Position numbers and translations under genes: made by a program. A stretch of 32,371 nt of DNA from an uncultured bacterium (GTDB lineage Bacteria; Patescibacteriota; Patescibacteriia; Patescibacteriales; SZUA-104): the NCBI GenBank assembly GCA_913009695.1, contig CAJVWV010000010.1, positions 1 through 32,371 of the forward strand. The letters run 5' to 3'. Every line of letters begins with the position of its first letter. Position 1 is the first letter of the stretch. The notes below the pieces were generated by a model. It saw only the letters and a program-made list of their open reading frames with translations. It made no database searches and was not told where the DNA came from. Below are positions 1-32,371 of this stretch, one piece after another.

Positions 1-24
1 CCCTACACGACGCTCTTCCGATCT
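1..24 (+). other. Residual Illumina TruSeq adapter sequence (assembly contaminant)
   Basis: ccctacacgacgctcttccgatct is identical to the 3' part of the standard Illumina read-1 adapter/primer (ACACTCTTTCCCTACACGACGCTCTTCCGATCT). Confidence 0.97.
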
Positions 25-7360: not shown

Positions 7361-7461
7361 TATTTAATACGGCTCTCTGGCGCGATTTTAAGCAAAAAAT
7401 GTTTTTAAATATTTTTAACATACAAAACTATTATAGCATTAATACTATTATTTGAAAACAC

Positions 7462-10134: not shown

Positions 10135-10767
10135 TCACATAAATAAACTTTCCGAATTATTTCTGTCTAAATGCCATTTGCCCGGATTATTAAAAATATA
10201 ATTTCTGACATTATTTAATTCAAATTCATTCCTGATTACGCGGTCGTGGAAACGCGTTTGCCAAGCGAAATTATTTTCTGGATATTTTTGGTTTATTGTA
10301 TTTGTTACGGCGGATTTAAATGACCTGATAATCGCGGATAATGATTTTGGTTTGGGGGACATTTTTGACATTTGTATATTTTTACCAGAAACATGGACAT
10401 TGCAATCCACACGCGTAGAGACGTTGCATGCAACGTCTCTACGCGTGTGGATTGCAATGTCCATGCCGTCGTTTCCATAATCAATAACAATTACCCCATG
10501 AACATGATTCGGCATCACAACAAATTCATCCAAAATCACATTATCAAAATGCAACGGTATTTCCAACCAATATTTAACAGCTGTTTCCCCAATTTCCGAC
10601 AATTGCATCTCCGCCTCTTCCCATTTACCAACAACATACCCAAAAAAATATTCTCTGTTTTTCGTACAAATCGTCACGAAATAATAACCCGCCTGCGAAT
10701 AATCCCAACCGTCCAATCTTGCGGATTTTATTATGTATTTATTTTTGTATTTTTTTATTTCCTCCAT
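10135..10767 (-). CDS. REP-associated tyrosine transposase (RAYT, Y1/HUH transposase) with in-frame palindromic insert
   Basis: YYFVTICTKNREYFF, VVMPNHVHGVIVI (HUH), FHDRVIRNEFELNNVRNYIFNNPGKW. Start taken as MEEIKKYKNKY at 10767; the upstream ORF part lies in a repeat. Confidence 0.9.
   Translation of the reverse strand: MEEIKKYKNKYIIKSARLDGWDYSQAGYYFVTICTKNREYFFGYVVGKWEEAEMQLSEIGETAVKYWLEIPLHFDNVILDEFVVMPNHVHGVIVIDYGNDGMDIAIHTRRDVACNVSTRVDCNVHVSGKNIQMSKMSPKPKSLSAIIRSFKSAVTNTINQKYPENNFAWQTRFHDRVIRNEFELNNVRNYIFNNPGKWHLDRNNSESLFM
10392..10465. repeat. 74-bp perfect palindrome containing 28-bp core copy A (10415-10442), inside RAYT
   Basis: catggacattgcaatccacacgcgtagagacgttgca / tgcaacgtctctacgcgtgtggattgcaatgtccatg. 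Confidence 0.97.
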
Positions 10768-10802
10768 GATTATTTTTTTATATTCGTTCGTGACGTACAG
10801 AC

Positions 10803-10880
10803 ATTGCCCCAAAAACATTTCCGTCTTGTAGAGACGTTGCATGCAACGTCTCTACAAGACGGAAATGTTTTTGGGGCAAT
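10803..10880. repeat. 78-bp perfect palindrome containing 28-bp core copy B (10828-10855)
   Basis: attgccccaaaaacatttccgtcttgtagagacgttgca and its exact reverse complement. Confidence 0.97.
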
Positions 10881-10896
10881 ATTCACGTTTTAAAAA

Positions 10897-12147: not shown

Positions 12148-12720
12148 TCAAGGCTCAATTTTTTTCATAAGCGCGCTTAAACGCTTTGAATCAAATTTTT
12201 TAAGATAATTTTTAATTTTTTTATTATCCAAAAAATCAAAATTCATTTCTTCCGGATCAAATTTAGCGTAGCCGTTTAACGAAAGATACGCCAGATCCAA
12301 AAAAGCTTTTTCCGGTTCGGCGATTAAATAATTTTCTTCCCGCGCGTACCCCCAAAATAATTGTGGCTTGATATGGCGGTAAATTATGGTTATTTCCTTT
12401 AGCTTCATTGTCTTGCTTCTTTTTGTCGTCGCTAAAATAATATTTGCCGGCCGCTGGCTTAAGATATTATATCGCGCCAATGCCGACTCAAAAGAGATAT
12501 AGCTTGGAGAGTAGGTTTCTCCGGCGAATTGCTCCCAGCCAATCTTAAAAGCGTCAACCGCGTATATTCCTTTTAACAATCTTATCAGCTCTCCTCTTTT
12601 CACCATCCGACTTAAGGAAACTTTTAAACTCGCGTCTTCCATGTCGGCGATTTTTCTAATGTCGGAAAACGAAAAATACGCTTTGGGAATCTTATTTATT
12701 TTTTGAATTAATTTTTGCAT
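12148..12720 (-). CDS. AbiEi-type antitoxin/transcriptional regulator-like protein
   Basis: HTH N-terminus FSFSDIRKIADMEDASLKVSLSRMVKRGELIRLLKGIYAV; YSPSYISFESALARYNIL; AEPEKAFLDLAYL. Confidence 0.75.
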   Translation of the reverse strand: MQKLIQKINKIPKAYFSFSDIRKIADMEDASLKVSLSRMVKRGELIRLLKGIYAVDAFKIGWEQFAGETYSPSYISFESALARYNILSQRPANIILATTKRSKTMKLKEITIIYRHIKPQLFWGYAREENYLIAEPEKAFLDLAYLSLNGYAKFDPEEMNFDFLDNKKIKNYLKKFDSKRLSALMKKIEP

Positions 12721-13387
12721 ATAACTGGCCGACCACCGGATAATATTTCCGAGGAAGAAAAACTTGCAGTTCATTTTGAAATTCCCTCCTTGAATAATGC
12801 GGAATTTTTTCCGGAAGAATAAAATTTTCACGAAGATTTTGGGCAATATACCACAAATCAAAAATATCGCGCGCTTTTTTTCTGCCCAAGAGCGCGGCTT
12901 CTTTTAGCTTTTTTAGTTCCAAGAGCGTTGGCGCGAGAAACAATGGCTCGGCAATGCTCACCGGACTTTTTATCAGCGATAAATTTGTTTCCAATTTTAT
13001 TTTTTTAGCCGGCTTGTGAATTTCAATTTTCAGCGAAAACGGATGCTTTAATTTTTCGTCTTTAATTAAAAGTAAAGCAAAAATTGTTTGCCATTTGTCT
13101 TTGATGTCGGAAACAGACCAATTCGCGCGATTTTCAACGACTTTTTCAATAAATTTTTTAAATTCGTTAAAAACGATTTTTTTATTAACAAGCAAATCAA
13201 TATCTTCGGAAAACCTCGGCGAACCGTAAACCAGACGCAAAGCGGTTCCGCCGTAAAAAATAACTTTGGCTCCCAGCTTATCTTCGCTTAAAACGCTTAA
13301 AAACTCCATTTCCGCTTCTTCGCGCAAAATCTGATCGCGAGAAATCCCAAGTTCTTTAATATAATTATTTAGCTGATTTTCGGTCAT
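12692..13387 (-). CDS. AbiEii/AbiGii-type nucleotidyltransferase toxin-like protein
   Basis: KVIFYGGTALRLVYGSPRFSEDIDLLV nucleotidyltransferase motif; KKARDIFDLWYIAQ. Confidence 0.85.
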   Translation of the reverse strand: MTENQLNNYIKELGISRDQILREEAEMEFLSVLSEDKLGAKVIFYGGTALRLVYGSPRFSEDIDLLVNKKIVFNEFKKFIEKVVENRANWSVSDIKDKWQTIFALLLIKDEKLKHPFSLKIEIHKPAKKIKLETNLSLIKSPVSIAEPLFLAPTLLELKKLKEAALLGRKKARDIFDLWYIAQNLRENFILPEKIPHYSRREFQNELQVFLPRKYYPVVGQLYAKINSKNK

Positions 13388-13405
13388 AAAATATAAATGC
13401 TTAAT

Positions 13406-13425
13406 AGTTAACATTATTGTTAACT
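13406..13425. promoter_or_regulatory. Inverted-repeat operator candidate upstream of the AbiE-like pair
   Basis: AGTTAACA ttat TGTTAACT, perfect 8-bp inverted repeat about 20 nt upstream of the toxin ATG. Confidence 0.6.
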
Positions 13426-13483
13426 TTATTGTATCATATAAATATGAGGCTGTCAATGGGTGGCCGTTTTATGCCGCCTCAAT

Positions 13484-13521
13484 CAAAAAGCGATTGGCCA
13501 AAAAACCAATCGCTTCTTTTT
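13484..13521. terminator. Terminator hairpin, right copy of the direct repeat around the AbiE pair
   Basis: aaaaagcgattggccaaaaaaccaatcgcttcttttt. Confidence 0.8.
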
Positions 13522-13596
13522 ATAAAAAATCGTAAAAACAAAATCGTAGAGACGTTGCATGCAACATCTCTACGATTTTGTTTTTACGATTTTTTA
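13521..13596. repeat. 76-bp palindrome (one mismatched pair) containing 28-bp core copy C (13545-13572)
   Basis: ataaaaaatcgtaaaaacaaaatcgtagagacgttgca / tgcaacatctctacgattttgtttttacgattttttat. Confidence 0.95.
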
Positions 13597-14550
13597 TTTC
13601 TTATGCACACTCCGGTCCATAACCACTTTAACGTTTTTTCCCTGGCTCTCCTGAATATATTGATAAGCGGCCAATGCGGCAATTGTTGCTTGTCCGGTTG
13701 CTATTGTAATCTGCTTAAAGGGAACCTGCGTTACGTCACCGGCGGCGAAAAGGCCGTTTGTTTTTGTTTTGCATTTCTCATCTACCAATATTTCCATCTT
13801 TTCGTTCCTGTCCGCGAAATCTTTAACTAGATCCGTTGCCGCGATACGACCGACCTCAATAAATATTCCATTAACATCCATTTCAGTTTCTTTATTTGTT
13901 TTATTATTTAACACTTTTATTTTTTCTACAAATTGCGAACCAATTATTTCTTTTACCTCGCTGTTTGTAATTATTTCAATATTGTCTCTTGATTCAACTT
14001 CTTTTATAGCTGCCGCAAATGCTCTGAATTTTTCTTGGCGATGTACTAGATAAACTTTCTTAGCGATTTTTGACATAATTTCGGCCGCGTCTATAGCGGA
14101 ATTGCCTCCGCCGACGACAGCCACAACCTTGTCTCTAAAAAACGGCCCGTCACAATTAGCGCAGTAAGAAGTTCCTTTGCCGGAAAATTCTTCTTCGCCC
14201 GGGATTGCTAATCGACGAGGGGTTAAACCTATTGCTACGATTATGGTTTTAGCTTCAAATTTTTCTTTACTCGCGTATACAGTAAAATTACCATCTTTTC
14301 CTTTCTCAATTTTATTTATTTCTCCGCTTTTCATCTCAACTCCTAAGCCCTTAACATGCTCTTCCATCTTTTTTATAAGATCTATGTTACTAATTTGCTT
14401 AAATCCTGGATAATTTTCAATATCAGCGGCCCAAACAAGCTGTCCGCCGGCTTCTTTTCCAATAATTAAAGCCTTCATTTCTCTTCTAGCCGCGTAAATC
14501 CCGGCCGTATAGCCGGCAGGGCCGGCGCCTATTATAATAGTGTCATACAT
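13594..14550 (-). CDS. trxB: Thioredoxin-disulfide reductase
   Basis: YDTIIIGAGPAGYTAGIYAAR, SYCANCDGPFF (CxxC), GGGNSAIDAA, NGLFAAGDV. Confidence 0.95.
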   Translation of the reverse strand: MYDTIIIGAGPAGYTAGIYAARREMKALIIGKEAGGQLVWAADIENYPGFKQISNIDLIKKMEEHVKGLGVEMKSGEINKIEKGKDGNFTVYASKEKFEAKTIIVAIGLTPRRLAIPGEEEFSGKGTSYCANCDGPFFRDKVVAVVGGGNSAIDAAEIMSKIAKKVYLVHRQEKFRAFAAAIKEVESRDNIEIITNSEVKEIIGSQFVEKIKVLNNKTNKETEMDVNGIFIEVGRIAATDLVKDFADRNEKMEILVDEKCKTKTNGLFAAGDVTQVPFKQITIATGQATIAALAAYQYIQESQGKNVKVVMDRSVHKK

Positions 14551-17322: not shown

Positions 17323-17426
17323 ATTAGACAGTCTGAGCGTATATCTGGTTACGGCTTTTATACAAAAGCCTCCACCCAAATTTTTCTTTCACTCCGTTAC
17401 AGAAAAACTTCAGATATACGCAAGCG
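17323..17426 (+). repeat. Solitary degenerate attC-like site
   Basis: gcgtatatctgg...cacccaaatttttctttcactccgttacagaaaaacttcagatatacgc; same architecture and shared middle segment as 26028-26127, R boxes decayed. Confidence 0.5.
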
Positions 17427-17477
17427 TAGCTAAAATAATTAAAAACAATAATCATTTTAACACTTTATTTTAACTAT

Positions 17478-18038: not shown

Positions 18039-18193
18039 GCTCCTGTAGCTCAAAAGGAAGAGCTTCAAAAAATTTAACCGTGTTCTTTAAATATTTTTTT
18101 CGAATAAATTATCTGATTAAAAATAATCAGGTAGAGACACGCCAATGGCATGTCTAGACAGGAAGCGTGCCGGTTCGATTCCGGCCAGGAGCA
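18039..18193 (+). tRNA. Interrupted tRNA-like gene (acceptor, D arm and T arm intact; no canonical anticodon arm)
   Basis: 5' GCTCCTGTAGCTCAAAAGGAAGAGC and 3' GCCGGTTCGATTCCGGCCAGGAGCA: 7-bp acceptor, 4-bp D stem and 5-bp T stem are perfect, but about 105 nt lie between D and T arms. Confidence 0.6.
18131..18159. repeat. Degenerate 28/29-bp element copy F inside the tRNA-like gene
   Basis: gtagagacacgccaatggcatgtctagac. Confidence 0.65.
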
Positions 18194-18194
18194 C

Positions 18195-18276
18195 AAAAAA
18201 CAAAGACCCAAAATCCAAAACGTAGAGACGTTGCATGCAACGTCTCTACGTTTTGGATTTTGGGTCTTTGTTTTTT
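18195..18276. repeat. 82-bp perfect palindrome containing 28-bp core copy D (18222-18249)
   Basis: aaaaaacaaagacccaaaatccaaaacgtagagacgttgca and exact reverse complement. Confidence 0.97.
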
Positions 18277-19081
18277 ATAATTCTATTTTTTTAACGCTAT
18301 CAATCTTTTCTCCTAAAAATTTCTCCCCAACCTCTTTAAGTCTTTTTTCATCATCAGTCGTATAAAATGTTATGCTTTTGTTTTTCTTTAATCTTTTTTC
18401 AATTTCCGAATGGCGCTTTAAATAATCAACTAATTTTTCAGCCACAATTTTGGGCGAATCTAAAACGCGTACTCTTTTTCCCATAATTTGTTTTATGTCT
18501 TTAATTAAAACCGGATAATGCGTGCATCCTAATATTAAAGCGTCAATATTTCTATCTTTGAGCGGGCGTAAATATTTTTTTAATATCTTCTTAGTTTCCG
18601 GACGCTTAACCCAGCCCTCTTCGACTAACGGCACAAGCAGAGGACAAGCTTGTTTGTAAATTTTTATGTCTGGAGCTAGCTTTTTTAGTTCAACTTCGTA
18701 TGTTCCTGACTCAATCGTAGCGCGCGTACTAATAAGTCCTACGCACTTTATATTTTTAATTTTAACCGTATCTTCAACAACCGGAATAATTACTCCCAAA
18801 ACGCGCTTTTCAGGATAATTTTTGGGCAAATAATCCTCTTGTATTTTTCTTAAGGCTTTTGCCGAAGCAGTATTACAAGCAACAATAATAATTTCACAGC
18901 CTTTTTTAAATAAAAAATCAACCGCTTCTTTGGTATAGCCATAAATTACATCTTGGGATTTATTGCCATAAGGCATGCGGGCATTATCGCCCAAATACAT
19001 ATAATCGTATTCAGGCAACTTGTCCAAATATCCCCTTAAAATTGTTAGGCCGCCAAAGCCAGAATCAAATACGCCAATCAT
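18275..19081 (-). CDS. murI: Glutamate racemase
   Basis: IGVFDSGFGGLTILRGY, GDNARMPYGNKS, IIVACNTASA, LGCTHYPVL. Confidence 0.95.
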   Translation of the reverse strand: MIGVFDSGFGGLTILRGYLDKLPEYDYMYLGDNARMPYGNKSQDVIYGYTKEAVDFLFKKGCEIIIVACNTASAKALRKIQEDYLPKNYPEKRVLGVIIPVVEDTVKIKNIKCVGLISTRATIESGTYEVELKKLAPDIKIYKQACPLLVPLVEEGWVKRPETKKILKKYLRPLKDRNIDALILGCTHYPVLIKDIKQIMGKRVRVLDSPKIVAEKLVDYLKRHSEIEKRLKKNKSITFYTTDDEKRLKEVGEKFLGEKIDSVKKIEL

Positions 19082-22948: not shown

Positions 22949-24106
22949 ATGAAAATATCTAGCTTGCAAGAAAACCTAAAACAAGGATTGTTCGCGGTAA
23001 GCCATATCGCTGGAAAAAATATTAACCTGCCAATTTTAAACAACGTGATGATAGAAGCGAGAAACGGAAACATAAAATTAATTACCACAAATCTGGAAAT
23101 AGGGGTTATAAGCGTGATAAGGGGCAAGGTTGAAAAAGAAGGATCTTTTACGGTTGATTCAAAAACTATTTCAGATTATGTATCTCTGCTTCCGAATAAA
23201 AAAATTAATATAGAACAAAAAGAAAACTCTTTGTTTGTTGAGGCGGAAAACTATAAAACAAAAATATTGGGGCAGTCCGCCGAAGAATATCCGCTAATTC
23301 CGGAAGTAGATAAAAAAATTGAATATAGCGCTAAAATTAGTGAATTTAAACAAGCGTTATCTCAAACCTCGTTCGCGGTAGCAAGCAGTGAAACAAGAAT
23401 GGAACTATCGGGTGTTTTATTCAGTTTTAATAAAAATAAACTTACTTTAGCCGCTACTGACAGCTATCGTTTAGCTGAAAAAACAATAAATATTAAAACC
23501 AATTTAGGAGAGGAAGAAAATAAAAAAATAATAATTCCGGCAAGAACTCTGCAGGAATTAATTAGAATTTTGTCCGGCTCGGAAGATTCCGGAAGCGACG
23601 AAGGTGAAATTAAATTTTATTTATCAGATAATCAAATTTTATTTACGGTTGATTCCATTGAACTGGTTTCCCGCTTAATTGAGGGACAATATCCGGACTA
23701 CAGGCAAATTATTCCTACCAACACAAAAACAACGGCGCTTATCAATAGAGCAGAGCTCACTAGAGCCGTAAAAGCGTCAGCCCTATTTTCCAAAGCGGGC
23801 ATTAATGACATCAACCTGGATTTTCCCGAAGGGAAAAACATGGCCGTAATTTCTTCAGCTTCAGGTCAAACAGGAGAAAACACGGTTGAGTTGGACGCGA
23901 ACGTAAAAGGCGAAGATAACGGCGTCGTAGTTAATTACCGCTACTTATTAGACGGACTCAATAATATTGATAGCGAAAACATAAAAATAGAAGTGATAGA
24001 CTCTAATACGCCGTGTATTTTAAAGGCTTCCTCCTCCGCTGAAGCTTCGGCGGACAAGGAAAAGGGCGACGACTATTTATATATAATCATGCCGATTAAG
24101 CAATAA
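22949..24106 (+). CDS. dnaN: DNA polymerase III beta subunit (sliding clamp) with palindromic peptide insert near C-terminus
   Basis: MKISSLQENLKQGLFAVSHIAGKNINLPILNNVMIEA...; ends DDYLYIIMPIKQ. Confidence 0.96.
   Translation: MKISSLQENLKQGLFAVSHIAGKNINLPILNNVMIEARNGNIKLITTNLEIGVISVIRGKVEKEGSFTVDSKTISDYVSLLPNKKINIEQKENSLFVEAENYKTKILGQSAEEYPLIPEVDKKIEYSAKISEFKQALSQTSFAVASSETRMELSGVLFSFNKNKLTLAATDSYRLAEKTINIKTNLGEEENKKIIIPARTLQELIRILSGSEDSGSDEGEIKFYLSDNQILFTVDSIELVSRLIEGQYPDYRQIIPTNTKTTALINRAELTRAVKASALFSKAGINDINLDFPEGKNMAVISSASGQTGENTVELDANVKGEDNGVVVNYRYLLDGLNNIDSENIKIEVIDSNTPCILKASSSAEASADKEKGDDYLYIIMPIKQ
24035..24054. repeat. Family II palindromic repeat in frame in dnaN
   Basis: tccgctgaagcttcggcgga, encoding SAEASAD. 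Confidence 0.8.
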
Positions 24107-24170: not shown

Positions 24171-24189
24171 ACAAGTTCGCATATACCTT

Positions 24190-24217
24190 GTTAGGCGAAA
24201 TATTTTGTTGGAAAATT
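24190..24217 (+). repeat. Cassette 1 terminal inverted repeat, left (partner 24503-24530)
   Basis: gttaggcgaaatattttgttggaaaatt; 26/28 complementary to aattttccaacaaaatacatcgcctaac. Confidence 0.9.
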
Positions 24218-24246
24218 TTAACAATTTAATTAAAGGGAGGAAAGCA

Positions 24247-24450
24247 ATGACAATAGGAATAGGAATATGGTTGGCTTGTGGAATTATATCATGTTTGATA
24301 GTAGCATTAAAGCTAATTGAAAGATTAAGCTGGAGACACATCCCATCCTTTATAGCACTTGTTCTTTTTGGATTAGTCAGTCTTTTTTTAGTCGGCACAG
24401 AGCTATTAGACAGACGAGTTGCTAAAAAGCAAAAATTAGCACAAAAATAA
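24247..24450 (+). CDS. Cassette 1: small membrane protein (67 aa)
   Basis: RBS gggaggaaagcaATG; two hydrophobic segments. Confidence 0.65.
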   Translation: MTIGIGIWLACGIISCLIVALKLIERLSWRHIPSFIALVLFGLVSLFLVGTELLDRRVAKKQKLAQK

Positions 24451-24523
24451 TTTCCAACAATTAAATTGGTCGGGGGCAAATAATTATAAACTGCTTCCGA
24501 CCAATTTTCCAACAAAATACATC

Positions 24524-24696
24524 GCCTAACAACGCGATAAGCGGTTCAGAGATTTTTACTCTATAATATTAACCCCACTACGCTAAAGCTCCGAGGGGCA
24601 CGGTAAGGAGTAAAAATCTCTTCTCCCAAATTTATGATATAATTATAAATATAATAATGAATATCATAAACTTCGCTTCATCGGTGAACGTTATAC
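24524..24696 (+). repeat. attC-like site b
   Basis: R'' GCCTAAC + CGATAAGCG ... CGCTTCATCG (one extrahelical C) + R' GTTATAC; internal agagatttttactc/gagtaaaaatctct. Confidence 0.75.
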
Positions 24697-24858
24697 GCAA
24701 TTCAAAAAATATTTTTCTAAAAGGTAAAATGATGATAGGCTTTCAAAAATGGATAAATTTGATTTTTTCATTTATAATAGAGGGGGATAAAAGGAATTTT
24801 CTCCTCTTCGTTCCGAAAATGAATATATTTATAAACATTTATATTTTTATTATATATT

Positions 24859-25875
24859 ATGGCTAAAATATCTAAAAAAATGATTTTAAACTTTCTTTAT
24901 AATTTTTTTCTCTTAAAATTTAAGGGCAAAAAAGAAAAGCTAAAGCCACTTTTTTTTTCTTATTATCTAACTCTAAATTGTAATTTCAATTGTAGTTATT
25001 GTAGTTTTGCTAAAAGTGGAGCTACTAAGAAACCAGATAATAAATTAAATACCAAAGATGTATTCAAAATTTTAAAGATAATAAGAAAAGAGAGTGCGGA
25101 TATTTATTTTACAGGGGGAGAGCCATTAATTAGAAGTGATATTGTTGAGATTTTAAAAGAATGTAAAAGACTTAAATTTAAATCAATTTTTGTAAATACC
25201 AACATGAGTCTTATCCATAAGAAAATGGAAATTTTAGACTACGTTACAAATTTGGTTTCAAGTCTTGATATGCTTAATACTGAAAAGTACGCCAAAATTT
25301 TAGGTATCCCTAAAGAAACTGTCAACCAAGTAAGGGAAAATATTATAACTTGTGCAAAATTGCAAAAAGAAAAAAACTTTTTAATGACAATCAATTGTGT
25401 TATATCGCCAGATACTTTAAAAGAAACTCGTAAAATAATGGGATTTTGTCTTAAAAATAATATTGGTTTTGCAGTTGTACCTGCCGAACTTGATTATGGT
25501 GAAATTGATCCACTTTTAAAGGACAGTAAAGAATACAAGCAATTAATTGAAGATATTATTAAACAAAAGAAAAAAATAAATATATCTATATTTGGAACAA
25601 AGAAATACCTAAAAACTATATTAAACTTCGAAAAATTTAATTGTTATCCAAATTTAATACCTCACGTTTATCCAAATGGTGATATACTTTGGCCATGTGA
25701 ACCATTGAAAAAATTTAGAGTTAATCTAATAAAAGAAGGTTCTTATAAAAAAGCTCTGGAAAAATCAGTAGCTAATCAACCTTTGCCAAAATGTTCAAAT
25801 AAATGTCACAAAGCATGCTATATTGAACCTTCTTGTTTTCTGCAAAATCCATTATTGTTGTTACAAGAGCTTTGA
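24859..25875 (+). CDS. Cassette 2: radical SAM protein with C-terminal Cys cluster
   Basis: YLTLNCNFNCSYCSF (CxxxCxxC), FTGGEPLIR, C-terminal C...CSNKCHKACYIEPSC. Confidence 0.88.
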   Translation: MAKISKKMILNFLYNFFLLKFKGKKEKLKPLFFSYYLTLNCNFNCSYCSFAKSGATKKPDNKLNTKDVFKILKIIRKESADIYFTGGEPLIRSDIVEILKECKRLKFKSIFVNTNMSLIHKKMEILDYVTNLVSSLDMLNTEKYAKILGIPKETVNQVRENIITCAKLQKEKNFLMTINCVISPDTLKETRKIMGFCLKNNIGFAVVPAELDYGEIDPLLKDSKEYKQLIEDIIKQKKKINISIFGTKKYLKTILNFEKFNCYPNLIPHVYPNGDILWPCEPLKKFRVNLIKEGSYKKALEKSVANQPLPKCSNKCHKACYIEPSCFLQNPLLLLQEL

Positions 25876-25917
25876 AAAATGAAATTCACCCCTAACCCCT
25901 CTTTCATTTTTCAAAAC
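25872..25917 (+). repeat. Family III palindromic repeat copy 1 (overlaps radical SAM stop codon)
   Basis: ttgaaaaatgaaattcacccctaacccctctttcatttttcaaaac; inverse copy at 31073-31125. Confidence 0.8.
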
Positions 25918-26027
25918 GGAAAAATCAAATTTATAAGAAAAGAAGAAAGCCTATCTGATGAATAAGAACGAAAAATATTTTTTGAACTCAAGCCACGCTG
26001 CGCTCTCCTCCTTGCAGTCGTCGGGGC

Positions 26028-26127
26028 GTATAACAAGGGATATACGGTTCAGCCCTCGGCTCGGGCTTCACCCAAATTTTTCTTCCACTTCGTTCCAGAA
26101 AAACTTCGTATATCCCTAACGTTATAT
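26028..26127 (+). repeat. attC-like site c
   Basis: GTATAACAAGGGATATACGG ... CTTCGTATATCCCTAACGTTATAT. Confidence 0.85.
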
Positions 26128-26262
26128 GACATATTTTGGTGGCAATTTGATTTTAAAATAAAAAAATTTTTATTTCCTTTATTTTTAATAATTTTGCTCC
26201 ACTATCGTTACGCAAAATGGGGGGGCGAAAAAATTTAAATACTGATATATAATCCTATTACT

Positions 26263-27639
26263 ATGACAAAACTAATATCAACAAATCCTGCAAAAAACTA
26301 TGAAATAGTTGGAGAAGTAGAAATCTCGACTGACAAGGAAATTTCTGAAAAAGTGAACTGCGCCAATAAGGCAAAAACCATTTGGAAAGAAATGGGAACA
26401 AAAAAGAGGATTGAATTACTAGGGCCAATTCTTGAAGACTTTAAAACCAAAGCAGATGAGATTGCAAATTTAGCAACTAAAGAAACAGGGAGAGCAATTG
26501 CTGAAAGCAAATCAATCGTGAACGGTCATTTAAAAAAGATCAAATGGTTTTTAGACAACACTGAATCAGCACTTTCTGATGAGATAACGCATGAAGATGA
26601 TGAATCAATCCATAAAATAGTATATGAACCTATTGGTGTAGTCGCTGTCATCACCCCCTGGAATCATCCGTTTGGAATGTTTGTTTGGGGGGTAATCCCA
26701 AATCTTCTTGCCGGCAATACAGTGGTTTTTAAAATTTCTGAAGAATGTCCGCTTGTTGGCAAATTAATTGAAAAGGTTATGCTCTCTCACAATCTTCCCG
26801 AGGGTGTATTTTCTGAAATTTACGGAGCAGGAGATGTTGGTTGGAAGCTAGTTCAAGACAATATTGATTTAATCTGGTTTACTGGAAGCACTAAAGTCGG
26901 GCAACAATTATATAAATTAGCTGGAGAAAAATTTATTAAAGTTGTTTTAGAGCTTGGGGGTTCTAACCCATGTCTTGTATTTGAAGACGTGGATATTAAA
27001 AAAATAGTCAGTAAAATTTATGCCAAAAGATTCAAGCTTTGCGGACAAACATGCGATGCCCTAAAGAGGTTAATCGTTCATAAATCAGTGTCTGAAAAAT
27101 TAATTGAGGCTTTAAAGCAAGAAATAGAATCAAAAAAAGTTGGCGATTCCGAAAATTTTGAAACGGACATTGGCAGTTTAGTTGCAGAAAGACAACTTGT
27201 TTTATTAGAAAGCCAAATAAAAGATGCTCTTGATAAAGGGGCTAAGATTATTACGGGGGGACACTCACCTGAAAAAATTAATGGTGCTTTCTATCTACCA
27301 ACTCTACTTACGAATATAACTAAAGATATGCGCATTTGGAGTGAAGAAACTTTTGGTCCTGTGTTGCCAGTTATCACTTTTGAAACTGAAGAAGAAGCCA
27401 TATCTCTTGCCAATGACTCAATATATGGATTAGGTTCGATTGTTTTTACTAAAGATATTGAACGAGCCAAAAGAATTGCCTCAAAAATAAACTCTGGAAC
27501 AGTTGAGATTAATAATGCGCTTCACTGGTTGTCTTGCAATCCATTCGGAGGATATAAAAAATCGGGCATGGGCAGGGAGCATGGAATTATTGGATTTAGA
27601 GAGCTTTGCCAAATAAAAGTTATTTCAATGGAAAAATAA
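26263..27639 (+). CDS. Cassette 3: NAD(P)-dependent aldehyde dehydrogenase
   Basis: VAVITPWNHPFGMFVWGVIPNLLAGNTVVFK, WFTGSTKVGQQL, VVLELGGSNP, GQTCDALKR, FGPVLPV, NPFGGYKKSGMGRE. Confidence 0.95.
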   Translation: MTKLISTNPAKNYEIVGEVEISTDKEISEKVNCANKAKTIWKEMGTKKRIELLGPILEDFKTKADEIANLATKETGRAIAESKSIVNGHLKKIKWFLDNTESALSDEITHEDDESIHKIVYEPIGVVAVITPWNHPFGMFVWGVIPNLLAGNTVVFKISEECPLVGKLIEKVMLSHNLPEGVFSEIYGAGDVGWKLVQDNIDLIWFTGSTKVGQQLYKLAGEKFIKVVLELGGSNPCLVFEDVDIKKIVSKIYAKRFKLCGQTCDALKRLIVHKSVSEKLIEALKQEIESKKVGDSENFETDIGSLVAERQLVLLESQIKDALDKGAKIITGGHSPEKINGAFYLPTLLTNITKDMRIWSEETFGPVLPVITFETEEEAISLANDSIYGLGSIVFTKDIERAKRIASKINSGTVEINNALHWLSCNPFGGYKKSGMGREHGIIGFRELCQIKVISMEK

Positions 27640-27792
27640 GGAGTCGCTATCGCGACAAAATTTTTTCGCCCCCTAATAATGAGTTCGCTATCGCTCACGG
27701 AAAATAAAAGTTTTTAGATAATAATGATAAATTGCCACCAAAATACGCTTACGCCCCGCTGCGCTCTCCCTACACTTCGTTTCGGTCGGGTC

Positions 27793-27890
27793 ATATAACA
27801 AGTGATAACCGGAAAATGCCTCGGCTCGGCATTTTCCCAAATTCGTTTTCCCTTCGGTCAAACGAACTTCGGTTATCACAAATGTTATAT
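27793..27890 (+). repeat. attC-like site d
   Basis: ATATAACAAGTGATAACCGG ... CTTCGGTTATCACAAATGTTATAT. Confidence 0.85.
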
Positions 27891-27942
27891 TCAATCGCTA
27901 CGGGGCAAAAATTTTATATAAACTATAATTTATTATCTTATT

Positions 27943-28287
27943 ATGGATTGGAAAAATAATTTCAAAAAGGGCAAAGAAATAATTTTAGCAACCTCTTCAA
28001 AAGATAGTATTGCTAATGCTAATATTGTAATCTCCCTTGGTTTTGTAGATAATAAATTATTAGTTGCTGATTGTCAGATGACTAATACAATCAAAAACCT
28101 TAAAGAAAATCCAAATATTTGTGTAATTGGTGGTTATATCAGATTGAAGGGTACTGTTGAAATATTTTCATCCGGCAAATATTTTGATTTATGTGTGAAA
28201 GAAAATAAAGATTACGATGTGAAAAATGCTATTCTAATCTCAGCAAAAGAGGTTTTTGATTTAGATAAAGTTAAAAAAATATTTTGA
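27943..28287 (+). CDS. Cassette 4: pyridoxamine 5'-phosphate oxidase-like (FMN-binding split barrel) protein
   Basis: ILATSSKDSIANANIVISLGFVDNKLLVADCQMTNTIKNLKENPNICVIGGYIRLKGTVE. Confidence 0.75.
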   Translation: MDWKNNFKKGKEIILATSSKDSIANANIVISLGFVDNKLLVADCQMTNTIKNLKENPNICVIGGYIRLKGTVEIFSSGKYFDLCVKENKDYDVKNAILISAKEVFDLDKVKKIF

Positions 28288-28367
28288 ATTTTTGCCCCTC
28301 CGCGACTTCTCCGTTTCACTTCGCTCCACTCCGACCACGTTGCACTTTCGTCGCTACGCTCCTCAGG

Positions 28368-28456
28368 GCGTATAACACGCATTAACCGGTTCGGCTCTTG
28401 CAGAGCCCTCACCCAAATTCTTCGGCTTCGCCTCAGAACTTCGGTTAATGCGATAT
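28368..28456 (+). repeat. attC-like site e, R' lost at IS junction
   Basis: GTATAACACGCATTAACCGG ... CTTCGGTTAATGCGATAT | IS end. Confidence 0.75.
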
Positions 28457-29787
28457 GCACTAGCATTGCGTTAAAAATTCAATGAAAATAAGCGTTTCTG
28501 AGCCTGGTCTTCAGAAGTTTGTAGATCAAACTCGGAAAGTAGCGTATTTACGGAGGTTTTCTCAAATAGGGATACTGATAAAATTTGTAGAATTTCGTAA
28601 AGATTTCGATTAATGTTCATTTCTTTTTTCATGATGGCAACTATCAGAAAAGTTGATATTGCGATACAGATTTGTGTCTTCACCGCATTTCTGGACGTAC
28701 CCCAGAATGTGTTAATATGCAAATGCTGTTTTATCCATTTAAAAAATAGTTCAATTTGCCAGCGGTGTTTGTACAGGTCGGCGATTATTACCGCGTCCAG
28801 ATCAAAGTTGTTCGTTAAATAAACATAGCGCTTGCCGGTTTCATTGTCATAGTATTTTATTCGCCTTAGTTTTTCCGGATAATATTTTTTTGAATAAAAA
28901 TGATTCAACCTGATTATCTGATCGCATCTGATACCAGACGGCTTATCCGTCTTCCCTGAATACAGCCTGGTCGCCGATATGCTTTTCTTGGCGCGAATGA
29001 TGAAAAACGCTTTTTGCTCATGTATTTGATATAGTCTTTCAAAATCGTAATAACCCCGATCCATTATATAGTAAGCGCCAGCTTCAAATTTCAAAATGTC
29101 TAAAAAATTAACATCATGCGTTTTAGCCTCTGTTATCAGGAAAAAAGAAGGAATATTGCCCCTTAAATCCAATTGGGTATGAATTTTAATCGCCGAATGT
29201 CCTTTCTCAAAATTGGCCCAAGGAAACAGGCTTAAGCACATTTCAATTACCGTAGAATCAAGCGCGTACGGCGTACCGTCCAAATCAATTTTGAAATTAC
29301 TATCATTGATATATAATTTTCTGGCTCTGTCAATCAATAGGTTGGCGAAGTCCCTATAGATTCTCCAATCGCGGTTTTCATTGGCGCGGGTTAAAGTAGA
29401 TAATGTTATCTTCTTAGTTCTAAAGCCCAAATGAAATAGTTGTTTCTGGTGGGCATTAAGACAAATTGTTATTCCGGAAAGGCTTTTTAAATTGCCCAGT
29501 TGCCCGAACATCATGGCAAGAAACTGATCGCGACAACTTAATCTGCGAACCTTTTTATTGCCGTTGTATTTGCTTACGCATTTATCAAATTCATATTTAG
29601 TAATGAAATCCATAATCTGCGGAAAAATATATTTACCATAATTCATAGATAATTAACATTAAATAAATTAAAATTTATGTTAATTATCCCATGTTCAATT
29701 CAAATCGAAAAATTTTTAAAAGTGTGAATTACCGCTAAAAATAAATAATATATTAATTAATAATTTTGTTTAACGCAATGCTAGTGC
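28457..29787 (-). mobile_element. IS4-family insertion sequence
   Basis: 19-bp terminal inverted repeats GCACTAGCATTGCGTTAAA / TTTAACGCAATGCTAGTGC around a DDE transposase. Confidence 0.92.
28471..29646 (-). CDS. IS4-family transposase
   Basis: FDKCVSKYNGNKKVRRLSCRDQFLAMMFGQL, LDSTVIEMCLSLFPWA, IMDRGYYDF, YKHRWQIELFFKWIKQHL (YREK). Confidence 0.93.
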   Translation of the reverse strand: MNYGKYIFPQIMDFITKYEFDKCVSKYNGNKKVRRLSCRDQFLAMMFGQLGNLKSLSGITICLNAHQKQLFHLGFRTKKITLSTLTRANENRDWRIYRDFANLLIDRARKLYINDSNFKIDLDGTPYALDSTVIEMCLSLFPWANFEKGHSAIKIHTQLDLRGNIPSFFLITEAKTHDVNFLDILKFEAGAYYIMDRGYYDFERLYQIHEQKAFFIIRAKKSISATRLYSGKTDKPSGIRCDQIIRLNHFYSKKYYPEKLRRIKYYDNETGKRYVYLTNNFDLDAVIIADLYKHRWQIELFFKWIKQHLHINTFWGTSRNAVKTQICIAISTFLIVAIMKKEMNINRNLYEILQILSVSLFEKTSVNTLLSEFDLQTSEDQAQKRLFSLNF

Positions 29788-29922
29788 GTCCGCGTGTATG
29801 AGAAGTTTCGCCGACTTCCTTACTATTTTACCATAGAAGAGGCGAAATTTGGGTGAAAGAAAAAGTGCAACCTTTGAAAATTATAACGCATTTTTTCTTG
29901 AACCTCATACACGCTGTTATAT
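29788..29922 (-). repeat. attC-like site f (inverted orientation), truncated at IS junction
   Basis: IS | gtccGCGTGTATGAG ... CCTCATACACGCTGTTATAT. Confidence 0.75.
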
Positions 29923-29944
29923 GATGTCTTTGGCTTCTTTATTT

Positions 29945-30319
29945 TTATATTTTCTTAAATGGATCTGGATTTACTTTTTCACCTGCTCTTTTCCCAATAG
30001 TAAAATCAAAAAGGAGAGCCACAAGAGGATATATCCATAGTAAATGTAATTTACTTACATCTAAGTAAAGAAAAATTATTAAAATGATACCCATTATCGA
30101 AGTAGTAAAGGGAAATGAGGCCATCCCCATTATGTCAGTCACGCTCTTTGGCTCTCCTTTTAGCATGGACTTATATTCGGTAAAACTTTTTATAAAAAAG
30201 AATACAGATATAATTCCATAAATACCCCAAACAAACCACCCTGCTACATTTGCAGAAAATAGAAAAATTAAAAGTAATGCTATTATTCCTATTGGTATTG
30301 TAAATAAAGTAAAACCCAT
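29945..30319 (-). CDS. Cassette 6: hypothetical membrane protein (124 aa)
   Basis: Multiple hydrophobic segments; flanked by attC-like sites f and g. Confidence 0.65.
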   Translation of the reverse strand: MGFTLFTIPIGIIALLLIFLFSANVAGWFVWGIYGIISVFFFIKSFTEYKSMLKGEPKSVTDIMGMASFPFTTSIMGIILIIFLYLDVSKLHLLWIYPLVALLFDFTIGKRAGEKVNPDPFKKI

Positions 30320-30354
30320 ATTATTTATTTAATTATAAAGAAGTCAAAGATTTC

Positions 30355-30536
30355 ATATAACGTTTAAGTATCATGCGAAGTTTTAATTATTCTACATTAT
30401 TATCATTATAAAGAAAAGAATAATTAAAATTTGGGTGAAAGAAATTTATGCTCATTATTATTGTTTCTCTGTAGCGAAGCGAAAGAGAAAGTTTTAATAA
30501 ATGTAAATTTCTGGAACCGCATATACTTTGTTAGGC
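30355..30536 (-). repeat. attC-like site g (inverted orientation)
   Basis: ATATAACGTTTAAGTATCATGCG ... CCGCATATACTTTGTTAGGC with one extrahelical G. Confidence 0.8.
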
Positions 30537-30619
30537 GATGTCAATTTATTTTTGTCACTCCTTATTATTAAATAAAAAATTAGAATTGGGCGAGAGCTTG
30601 GGCTAAACTCTCGCTTTAC

Positions 30620-30778
30620 TTAAAATAAACATCCTTGTTCCTTGATTTGTTCCGGGTCTGCCGCGGGCATATCCGGGCGCATTGTCAATCCTCCATTATT
30701 TAGAAGGATATTATTCACAGCATCATCTAATTTTTTACGTTCGTTATAAATATATTCAAGCATTTCTTCGTATTCCAT
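30620..30778 (-). CDS. Cassette 7: small protein (52 aa), not in ORF track
   Basis: MEYEEMLEYIYNERKKLDDAVNNILLNNGGLTMRPDMPAADPEQIKEQGCLF*; G-rich SD-like aaggggggatgttATG. Confidence 0.6.
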   Translation of the reverse strand: MEYEEMLEYIYNERKKLDDAVNNILLNNGGLTMRPDMPAADPEQIKEQGCLF

Positions 30779-30854
30779 AACATCCCCCCTTTTTTTTATT
30801 AGCCCAATTCTAATTCTTTATTTTTCTATTAAAGGACAAAAATAAATTTATTTC

Positions 30855-30952
30855 GCCTAACGTTTCAGTATATGCGATGTTTTGCGGAATGCAATGGAGC
30901 AAAATATGGGAGAGCGAAGTGCAACGAGTGAACCGCATATACTGTGTTAGGC
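30855..30952 (-). repeat. attC-like site h (inverted orientation)
   Basis: GCCTAACGTTTCAGTATATGCG ... CCGCATATACTGTGTTAGGC. Confidence 0.85.
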
Positions 30953-31072
30953 GAGCCGAACGGAGCGATAGCGGAGTGAGAGTGCAACGTGCCTCTAGCG
31001 TATTTTTGAAAAAATTTATCCTTATTATTCTTTTGTTGTTGGGCTTTTATCATTTCTTATTTTTGATTTTTT

Positions 31073-31125
31073 GTTTTGAAAAATGAAAGAGGGGAATTAA
31101 AGGGGTGAATTTCATTTTTCAAAAC
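31073..31125 (-). repeat. Family III palindromic repeat copy 2 (inverted relative to copy 1)
   Basis: gttttgaaaaatgaaagaggggaattaaaggggtgaatttcatttttcaaaac. Confidence 0.8.
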
Positions 31126-31137
31126 TCTTTATTTATT

Positions 31138-32371
31138 TTATATAGAATATCTATCAAGAAATATTTGATTTATTTCTTTTAAGAATTTGTCATTTTCTTT
31201 ATTATCTAATATGCTTTCTCTATATTTAAAAAACAATTTTAAAATTTTTTCTTCATCATTTTTTGATAATTTATTTAAATCTAACATCAAAGCTTTATTA
31301 ATATCATTTGGTTCAAATTTTTTTAATCCATTACCATATTCTCTTCTGTTATCATTAAAAATTTCTTTTGCAATATCCGTTAATAAATAAGCAAATAATA
31401 AATCTTCTTTTTGTAAAGAAAACATATTTAAATAAATACAATGAAAAGTTGTGAGGTTTATAATTTTAGCTTCATTTTTAATAAATTTTAAACCATTCCT
31501 GTTGAATACAGAAACTAAAATCGGAGCTGGTTCTCTATTTTCTATTGAATACCAAGGATTACGTTTAGATGTTAAATATTTTTTATTCACATCATTTTCT
31601 TCTCCATAATTTATATATGATTTTATATATTTATTTTTTTCATTGCCAACTGCATTTATTAAAAATGTAGTCTTATCGTTGTTTTTTAAACTTTCAAATT
31701 CTTTTTTCGTAAAAAATCCTGTTTTGATATCTGTAGATTTACATATACAAGGTAATAAATATTTTTCATCGATGTTAAATTTTTTAGCCTTTGATAATTT
31801 AAACGTAAAATAATTATTATCTCCAGTTGCAATACCTCTCATCACTTTTCCGTAATTTGAAAAAGGGACTAAATATTTAAATTTAGTAGAATTTTGTTTT
31901 TGATAATAATTTCTCCATTTTATTTTATAATCAAGTTTTTTAAGCTCAAAAGTATTCTTATTTAATTTAACATTTGGGTATTGAATTATATTTTTCTTGA
32001 TTGATTCTAAATCATCTAAATTTTTAACATTGTAAAAGGTGACTTTATTTGATTTTTTATCATTTGAAAATAAAAGAATAGACGCAGTAGTTGTAGCATT
32101 TTCAAAAACATTTTCTTTAAAATCAATAATAATTACATATTTTAGATTTCCACTTTCTATTAAATATTTTTTTACTAATTTACCATAATCTGAATTTAAA
32201 AATTCAGAAGGTATAATATATGCTATCCTGCCATTGGTTTTAATTTGATGAATTGATTTTAATAAAAATAAAACATAAAGATTAGAAAAACCATTTAATG
32301 AAATAGATAATTTTTGCGTAACTTCTTTTAAAACACTTTTGTTATTATAATCATGAAATTTTAAATATGGA
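31138..32371 (-). CDS. N6-adenine DNA methyltransferase (Type II/IIG-like), 5' end beyond window
   Basis: Frame open to window edge: PYLKFHDYNN (end of an NPPY motif at the edge), NGRIAYIIPSEFLNSDYGKLVKKYL, ATTTASILLFSNDKK. Confidence 0.8.
   Translation of the reverse strand, partial: PYLKFHDYNNKSVLKEVTQKLSISLNGFSNLYVLFLLKSIHQIKTNGRIAYIIPSEFLNSDYGKLVKKYLIESGNLKYVIIIDFKENVFENATTTASILLFSNDKKSNKVTFYNVKNLDDLESIKKNIIQYPNVKLNKNTFELKKLDYKIKWRNYYQKQNSTKFKYLVPFSNYGKVMRGIATGDNNYFTFKLSKAKKFNIDEKYLLPCICKSTDIKTGFFTKKEFESLKNNDKTTFLINAVGNEKNKYIKSYINYGEENDVNKKYLTSKRNPWYSIENREPAPILVSVFNRNGLKFIKNEAKIINLTTFHCIYLNMFSLQKEDLLFAYLLTDIAKEIFNDNRREYGNGLKKFEPNDINKALMLDLNKLSKNDEEKILKLFFKYRESILDNKENDKFLKEINQIFLDRYSI

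Follow-up and report, generated by a model that had tools for sequence, protein, structure and literature searches.

Opposed cassette arrays in a Patescibacteria genome suggest an integron-like system whose candidate integrase lacks the IntI additional domain

The 32,371-bp stretch of DNA analysed here (the window) makes up contig C10 in full. It comes from an uncultured bacterium of the Candidate Phyla Radiation (CPR; Patescibacteria), whose assembly (G000) comprises 939 kb in 43 contigs and is 80% complete. It contains two cassette arrays that run in opposite directions and are joined by an insertion sequence (IS) of the IS4 type (Table 1). The left array, on the plus strand, starts after dnaN and consists of an attI-like half-site (a) and attC-like sites b-e alternating with four genes, while the right array, on the minus strand, consists of sites f, g and h with genes for a membrane protein, a 52-aa protein and a fragment of an Eco57I-type methylase. 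We estimate the probability at roughly 0.85 that these arrays belong to a CPR integron system in which a tyrosine recombinase of the type encoded on contig C35 of the same genome would recombine folded bottom-strand attC-like sites with attI. A preliminary description of the window had recognised an integron-like cassette array in a probable CPR chromosome, and this is well supported, since sites b-h and half-site a are present and relatives of the recombinase were found in Falkowbacteria, Magasanikbacteria, Moranbacteria, Uhrbacteria and others. It had missed that sites f, g and h and their genes are reversed, that the gap between e and f is an IS4-type element, and that several cassettes have terminal inverted repeats.

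Results

A candidate integrase outside the window

The array had been described as integrase-less, which is true of the window, where there is no intI, but not of the genome. A genome search with the core pattern of the sites led to contig C35, where a tyrosine recombinase gene is divergent from an attI-like site at 7364-7383 that is identical to site a and is followed by two more cassettes. The order on C35 is the recombinase, facing AAGTTCGCATATACCTTG/TTAGGCGAAATA (the slash marks the putative cut), then an empty cassette, an NlpC/P60 cassette and a sequencing adapter. The proposed search for a tyrosine recombinase with the IntI-specific patch would have missed the C35 enzyme, in which the patch is absent. 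The Illumina adapter is clear at the end of C35 (locus L010, 8394-8512) and is only suggested at window positions 1-20, by the translation of the first open reading frame (ORF); the contig ends at these places are probably artefacts.

The catalytic residues R, K, H-xx-R, H and Y are invariant in the recombinase and its homologs, which form a distinct group with 38-69% identity. A second group, with about 35% identity, comprises the chromosomal Xer proteins found in nearly all genomes, and the chromosomal Xer of the same genome is encoded separately, on C20. The enzyme passed the NF040815 model ('site-specific tyrosine recombinase/integron integrase') with 239.8 bits against a cut-off of 220, but scored 201 bits against a cut-off of 265 with the IntI model TIGR02249. 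Where VchIntIA has 72 residues, the C35 enzyme has 29. Among sequences in which both motifs could be identified, the catalytic K and the HxLRH motif were 65-66 residues apart in the C35 clade, compared to 106-108 in IntI and 66-73 in other recombinases. Judged from these sequences, the C35 clade is without the additional domain of about 41 residues that contains the I2 helix region of IntI.

In the phylogenetic tree, the C35-type clade fell on one side of a branch with support of 96/88 and IntI on its own branch with 100/99, and the two together were split from the chromosomal Xer proteins (100/99). The IntI sequences used for reference came from plasmids, phages and viral contigs; a betaproteobacterial genome reached via its locus contained no IntI above the cut-off. 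The C35-type clade also included an enzyme from a Leptospira phage and one entry from Nanoarchaeota. Since the tree contains three groups, a sister relationship to IntI is decided by rooting at Xer, and since there are outsiders in the clade, we limit our claim to an IntI-proximal lineage without I2. A Nanoarchaeota-labelled contig (L104) encodes a 41% identical recombinase without model sites, which represents either transfer or a binning error. The C35 enzyme was also considered as the XerA/XerC/D chromosome dimer resolvase, which was rejected since it does not group with the chromosomal Xer of its lineage.

It is improbable that the system is an ordinary IntI integron in which divergence within IntI, or poor alignment, accounts for the missing domain. 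VchIntIA (2A3V) was the best Foldseek match to the AlphaFold2 model (mean predicted local distance difference test score of 86), followed by XerA, and the N-terminal halves of the enzymes matched TIGR02249 at 109-144 bits compared to about 30-55 bits for most chromosomal Xer, as an IntI origin would predict. However, the cut-off of this model was reached in none of 60 genomes, the profile aligning as two segments with about 55 positions left out between them, and both the short K-HxLRH distance and the separate, well supported IntI branch argue against this explanation.

The enzyme and the sites occur together

We found 42 sites at 65 recombinase loci from named genomes, every one of them upstream of the recombinase match and on the other strand, and none at the non-CPR loci. 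Across the phylum, we identified the enzyme in 39 genomes, sites in 40 and both in 27 (Fisher's exact test, p = 4e-19, which overstates the independence of the genomes because the species are related). The enzyme and the sites were on one contig and divergent in 17 of the 27 (G180, G240, G147, G198, G087, G188, G307, G215, G159, G276, G156, G336, G072, G311, G073, G258 and G344), of which G188 is a one-contig genome.

The sites share a covarying fold with a strand bias

The core pattern of the sites, CCCAAATT-N15-45-AACTTCG, occurs 5 times in the window, with 0.01 expected, and 7 times in the genome compared to none for the reversed control. Ten sites were aligned by structure, yielding a common architecture of an R stem, a short unpaired spacer, a 10-bp L stem and a three-way junction with two arms, in the order GT-TC-arm1-TC-AC, CC, AAATT-arm2-AACTT, and then L', spacer and R'. 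The extra-helical bases reported previously in sites b and g are indeed present and occupy one fixed position in the L stem. The R boxes are loose (GTTNNNN) and depart from RYYYAAC/GTTRRRY. In this alignment, 95.4% of the cells were paired, whereas controls with slid partners were only 32-43% paired, and 21 of 32 pairs changed on both sides, compared to 13.5 +/- 1.6 after shuffling (0 of 500 shuffles). The structure was derived from the same sequences, with manual trimming of the arms and N padding of the truncated rows, and the independent test is therefore the search of other genomes with the covariance model built from the ten sites (R1).

This search identified sites in 37 of 60 genomes of the order, many of them in same-direction arrays with a spacing of 0.5-3 kb, and in 40 of 287 genomes across the phylum (E <= 1e-6); no site was found at classical integron loci. 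The bottom strand was predicted to be the more stable in 79 of 81 sites, by a mean of 2.5 kcal/mol (p = 1e-14), and in 28 of 28 sites from other lineages. One contributor to this preference is a conserved mismatch that reads A.C on the top strand but G.T on the bottom strand.

These data also bear on whether the sites might instead be double-stranded Xer-like sites or RNA elements such as terminators, with an incidental single-strand fold. The attI-like site is an inverted-repeat site of the duplex type, as this explanation would have it, and the activity of the attC-like sites is a prediction. We nevertheless consider it very unlikely given the compensatory changes in both arms of the three-way junction, the preference for the non-coding bottom strand, which is the opposite of what an RNA would require, and the fact that tRNAs gave the only Rfam matches in the window.

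Two solitary attC-like sites, neither with a proper R'' box, were seen in the genome, at window positions 17331-17431 and on contig C1 at 42164-42312 (L011, 6165-6313). Both are preceded by a near-identical segment of about 60 bp (TTTTTTAGCTAATTTTAGCATACCAAATTTTTCAAAATGGAGTTATTAGACRGTCTGA), as if another element ended in a site. In another genome, a contig (G059:C14, L129) has at least 8 sites in an array, at the head of which there is only a short integrase match (residues 11-55), perhaps an integron decaying towards an integrase-less array.

Cassettes match at their own ends and carry terminal inverted repeats

The longest ORF runs in the direction of the array in 56 of 59 cassettes from the order, which have a median length of 843 bp. 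Encoded proteins include a deaminase, methyltransferases, an EamA transporter, M23 and M28 peptidases, KilA-N and TrmO-type proteins. The PNPOx-like gene of cassette 4 has a 59% identical homolog in a cassette of another genome (G051), and gave no match in a search of viral contigs.

As previously described, the R boxes at the two ends of one cassette match each other in cassettes 1, 2, 3, 6 and 7, with cassette 4 being one base off (GTTATAT/GTATAAC). In the genome and its relatives, own-end boxes matched perfectly in 27 of 47 cassettes compared to 8% of cross-pairings, while the two boxes of one site matched in 11 of 44 cases. The argument that true cassettes should match at their own ends is sound, as supported by a chromosomal integron of Vibrio anguillarum used as a control, in which 15 of 15 cassettes did so. 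The Vibrio sites were located by their repeats, a finder based on R boxes and folding having identified none of them.

The sequences R'-GAAAT and ACATC-R'' are common at the ends of CPR cassettes and are followed by inverted repeats specific to each cassette, which run past the R boxes in several cassettes of the window (I2, I4, I5 and I10). The terminal-repeat score for the 59 cassettes was 14.8 for own ends compared to 7.8 for cross-pairs (p = 9e-11). This was replicated at independent loci of other lineages (13.0 versus 6.9, 12 of 22 cassettes, p = 1.7e-7), whereas terminal repeats were absent from the 15 cassettes of the one Vibrio integron (6.8 versus 6.7). The two repeats of a cassette are a whole gene apart in the array but would be neighbours in the excised circle, where they would extend the R stem; the predicted fold of cassette 1 in the circle form was -54.6 kcal/mol.

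The inverted repeats at the ends of many units, together with the IS between the arrays, would also be expected of tandem transposons with terminal inverted repeats, or of units resembling miniature inverted-repeat transposable elements, to which the tyrosine recombinase would be unrelated. Such an origin is very improbable: the units in the window contain no transposase, the sites are linked to one clade of recombinases in a strictly upstream and divergent position, the repeats continue without a break into R boxes whose pairing is part of a covarying site, and sites and genes are uniformly oriented.

Two further sequence features of the cassettes were noted. A 29-nt stretch in the radical SAM cassette (25865-25893) is 97% complementary to one in the methylase cassette (31101-31129); it is located outside the sites (I7) and is a second module common to cassettes. 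Many cassettes from different genomes have a GC-rich stretch like CCACGCTGCGCTCTCC...CGTCGGGGC located between R'' and the inverted repeat, for example at 25987-26027 and 27748-27790.

Array heads without an adjoining integrase

The attI-like sites have the consensus AAGTTCGNATATAACTTGTT, with variation, and are located 28-61 bp from the start of the integrase gene at about 27 loci. Exact attI-like heads that do not adjoin an integrase were found in the window, after dnaN, and in G006, G015 and G014; the second head in G015 adjoins a TsaE-like ORF. The 20-base attI core is the same in the integrase-side copy and the second head of G000, G014 and G015, as expected if one integrase serves both.

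G006, which belongs to another family, also has an attI-like site and a first cassette after dnaN. The preliminary description had left room for these genes being fixed, non-modular neighbours, which our comparison does not support: no site was found after dnaN in G001, the closest relative with an assembled dnaN (DnaN identity of 81%), within the 0.33 kb downstream before its contig ends, and none was found there in most other genomes compared. The array next to dnaN in G000 thus appears to be variable rather than a fixed neighbourhood.

A second attI copy in G035 looks like the same integrase-attI junction on another contig and was not counted as a second array. The two contigs (G035:C11, L223, and G035:C49, L045) seem to share the 5' end of the integrase gene and attI. 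A fork of this kind in the assembly, at attI, would be in keeping with a population whose members differ in their cassettes.

Organisation of the window

The IS lies where the missing R' sides of e and f would be expected. Its ends show no visible target duplication, and the assembly has a single occurrence of its left 263 bases. An inversion between IS copies was considered for the origin of the opposed arrays and rejected, as there is no other copy in the assembly. Elsewhere in the window, we noted an IS200-like Y1 transposase gene at 10135-10842, possibly of the type associated with repetitive extragenic palindromes, an AbiEi/AbiEii-type toxin-antitoxin pair at 12148-13456, and a dispersed repeat around 10305-10893, 13417-13830 and 18150-18365 with recurring VETLHATSL peptides in several frames.

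Table 1. Features of the two arrays in the window and the recombinase on C35. Bit scores are for model R1, of which sites b-h are all members.
Feature	Position	Strand	Remarks
dnaN, DNA polymerase III beta clamp	22949..24106	+	left neighbour of array; homologs in 24/26 genomes, 81% identity in same family
attI-like half-site a, AAGTTCGCATATACCTTG/TT	24173..24192	+	identical to site adjoining candidate integrase on C35
Cassette 1: 81-aa small membrane protein (24205-24450) and site b	24191..24690	+	own ends TTAGGC/GCCTAAC
Cassette 1 terminal inverted repeat I5	24191..24217 (5' arm), 24503..24530 (3' arm)	+	30 nt, 93%
Site b, attC-like, long arms	24524..24696	+	57.9 bits, E 2e-12; extra-helical base; R''/R' mismatched
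Cassette 2: radical SAM protein, 338 aa (24859-25875) and site c	24691..26121	+	PF04055, 1.4e-19; own ends TTATAC/GTATAAC; inverted repeat 24700-24717 with 25970-25987
Site c	26028..26127	+	69.8 bits, E 1e-15
Cassette 3: aldehyde dehydrogenase, 458 aa (26263-27639) and site d	26122..27884	+	PF00171, 5.5e-133; inverted repeat I2
Site d	27793..27890	+	63.1 bits
Cassette 4: PNPOx-like 114-aa protein (27943-28287) and truncated site e	27885..28456	+	PF01243
Site e	28370..28456	+	41.1 bits; R' side absent at IS
IS4-type element, transposase 28471-29646	28457..29787	-	PF01609 and PF14294; ends GCACTAGCATTGCGTTAAA
Site f	29791..29922	-	42.0 bits; R' side absent at IS
Cassette: 124-aa membrane protein (29945-30319)	29923..30360	-	own ends TTATAT/ATATAAC; inverted repeat I4, 35 nt, 83%
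Site g	30355..30536	-	41.7 bits; extra-helical base; R''/R' mismatched
Cassette: 52-aa protein (30620-30778)	30537..30860	-	own ends TTAGGC/GCCTAAC; inverted repeat I10, 27 nt, 89%
Site h	30855..30952	-	63.1 bits
Last cassette of opposed array: Eco57I-type methylase fragment (31138-32370)	30953..32371	-	PF07669, PF22837; cut by contig end
Tyrosine recombinase, 290 aa	C35, L010 6449-7321	-	divergent from attI-like site

Discussion

The features computed here (site structure, own-end matching, association with the enzyme, conservation of the attI-like site, strand asymmetry, terminal repeats and the missing domain) are consistent with a mechanism that we infer as follows. The Xer/IntI-type recombinase from C35 would act in trans on the window array, recombining an attC-like site, folded from the bottom strand, with the double-stranded attI between G and TT, with the cut in the window placed between G24190 and T24191. 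One-gene cassettes would be inserted at attI and excised between neighbouring sites. The folded site may make up for the missing I2 by presenting a near-regular duplex of R stem, spacer, 10-bp L stem and three-way junction, and in the free circular form of a cassette its terminal inverted repeats would add about 10-30 bp to the R stem.

Several observations weigh against this interpretation. At the strict cut-off, 12 of the 39 genomes with the enzyme had no site and 13 of the 40 with sites had no enzyme, for which decay, fragmented genomes or weak matches may be options. Terminal repeats are not a feature of all cassettes, with 23 of 59 exceeding the 99th percentile of cross-pairs, and the PNPOx-like gene is the only high-identity cassette gene found to be common between genomes. 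No recombination product, excised circle or within-species cassette difference was seen, the evidence being all comparative. Finally, the enzyme is without the domain to which single-strand recombination by IntI is attributed (PMC7790495), so that this part of the mechanism is drawn by analogy.

Compared with IntI integrons, whether chromosomal, as in Vibrio, or mobile (classes 1-3), the CPR system is similar in having a tyrosine recombinase adjacent to and divergent from the array in C35 and relatives, a putative attI beside it as indicated by sequence conservation, one-direction arrays of one-gene cassettes with matching own ends, and imperfect palindromic R''/L''/L'/R' sites with a bottom-strand bias, an unpaired spacer and an occasional extra-helical base. 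It differs in the integrase, which is without the additional domain of about 41 residues, in the looser R boxes, in the conserved three-way-junction core with a G.T wobble on the bottom strand, in the conserved R'-GAAAT...ACATC-R'' cassette ends, in the terminal inverted repeats, of which there were none in the 15 Vibrio cassettes, and in that model R1 matches no classical locus. Because the anatomy is that of an integron while the defining feature of the integrase is absent, we do not class the system as an IntI integron.

Taken alone, the window resembles a cluster of attC sites lacking an integron-integrase (CALIN), but the genome has a candidate integrase beside an identical attI-like site. 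Archaeal integrons likewise lie outside the classical bacterial groups and are mostly integrase-less arrays in metagenome-assembled genomes, but their integrases have the IntI-specific additional domain (PMC9668308). XerA, XerC and XerD share the domain layout without I2, but the C35 clade is set apart from the chromosomal Xer of the same genomes and is tied to cassette arrays. A parallel is the integration of the CTX phage hairpin by XerCD, in which a recombinase without I2 uses a single strand whose fold resembles a duplex site, although this is a phage site without cassettes (PMC7790495).

The I2 helix is thought to let IntI handle folded single-strand sites, and its acquisition is regarded as the step that gave integrons single-strand recombination; its deletion abolishes IntI1 function, for which reason direct proof of this causal role is missing (PMC7790495). 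We tentatively suggest, at rather less than even odds, that the CPR system represents an ancestral-type integron lineage beside IntI, in which folded single-stranded sites would be recombined without I2 and site architecture would replace protein innovation. The elements of such a solution would be the duplex-like stem, the G.T strand mark and cassette-specific terminal repeats, with which the R arm would become complete only once the cassette is an excised circle. Among the open PubMed Central papers searched (no preprints), none was found to describe such CPR integrons. A survey in Nature Communications applied IntegronFinder to groundwater genomes including CPR, and the part of that article covered here describes no such system.

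A natural, widespread lineage with the anatomy of integrons but no I2 domain would make the origin of integrons directly testable. The terminal repeats suggest that the free circle and the inserted cassette differ, and this difference may determine which way the reaction runs. Such systems would probably escape tools that depend on the IntI domain, and they may form an overlooked branch of integrons across a phylum. For the small-genome CPR bacteria, they represent a candidate gene-capture system, present in about 14% of the sampled genomes of the phylum.

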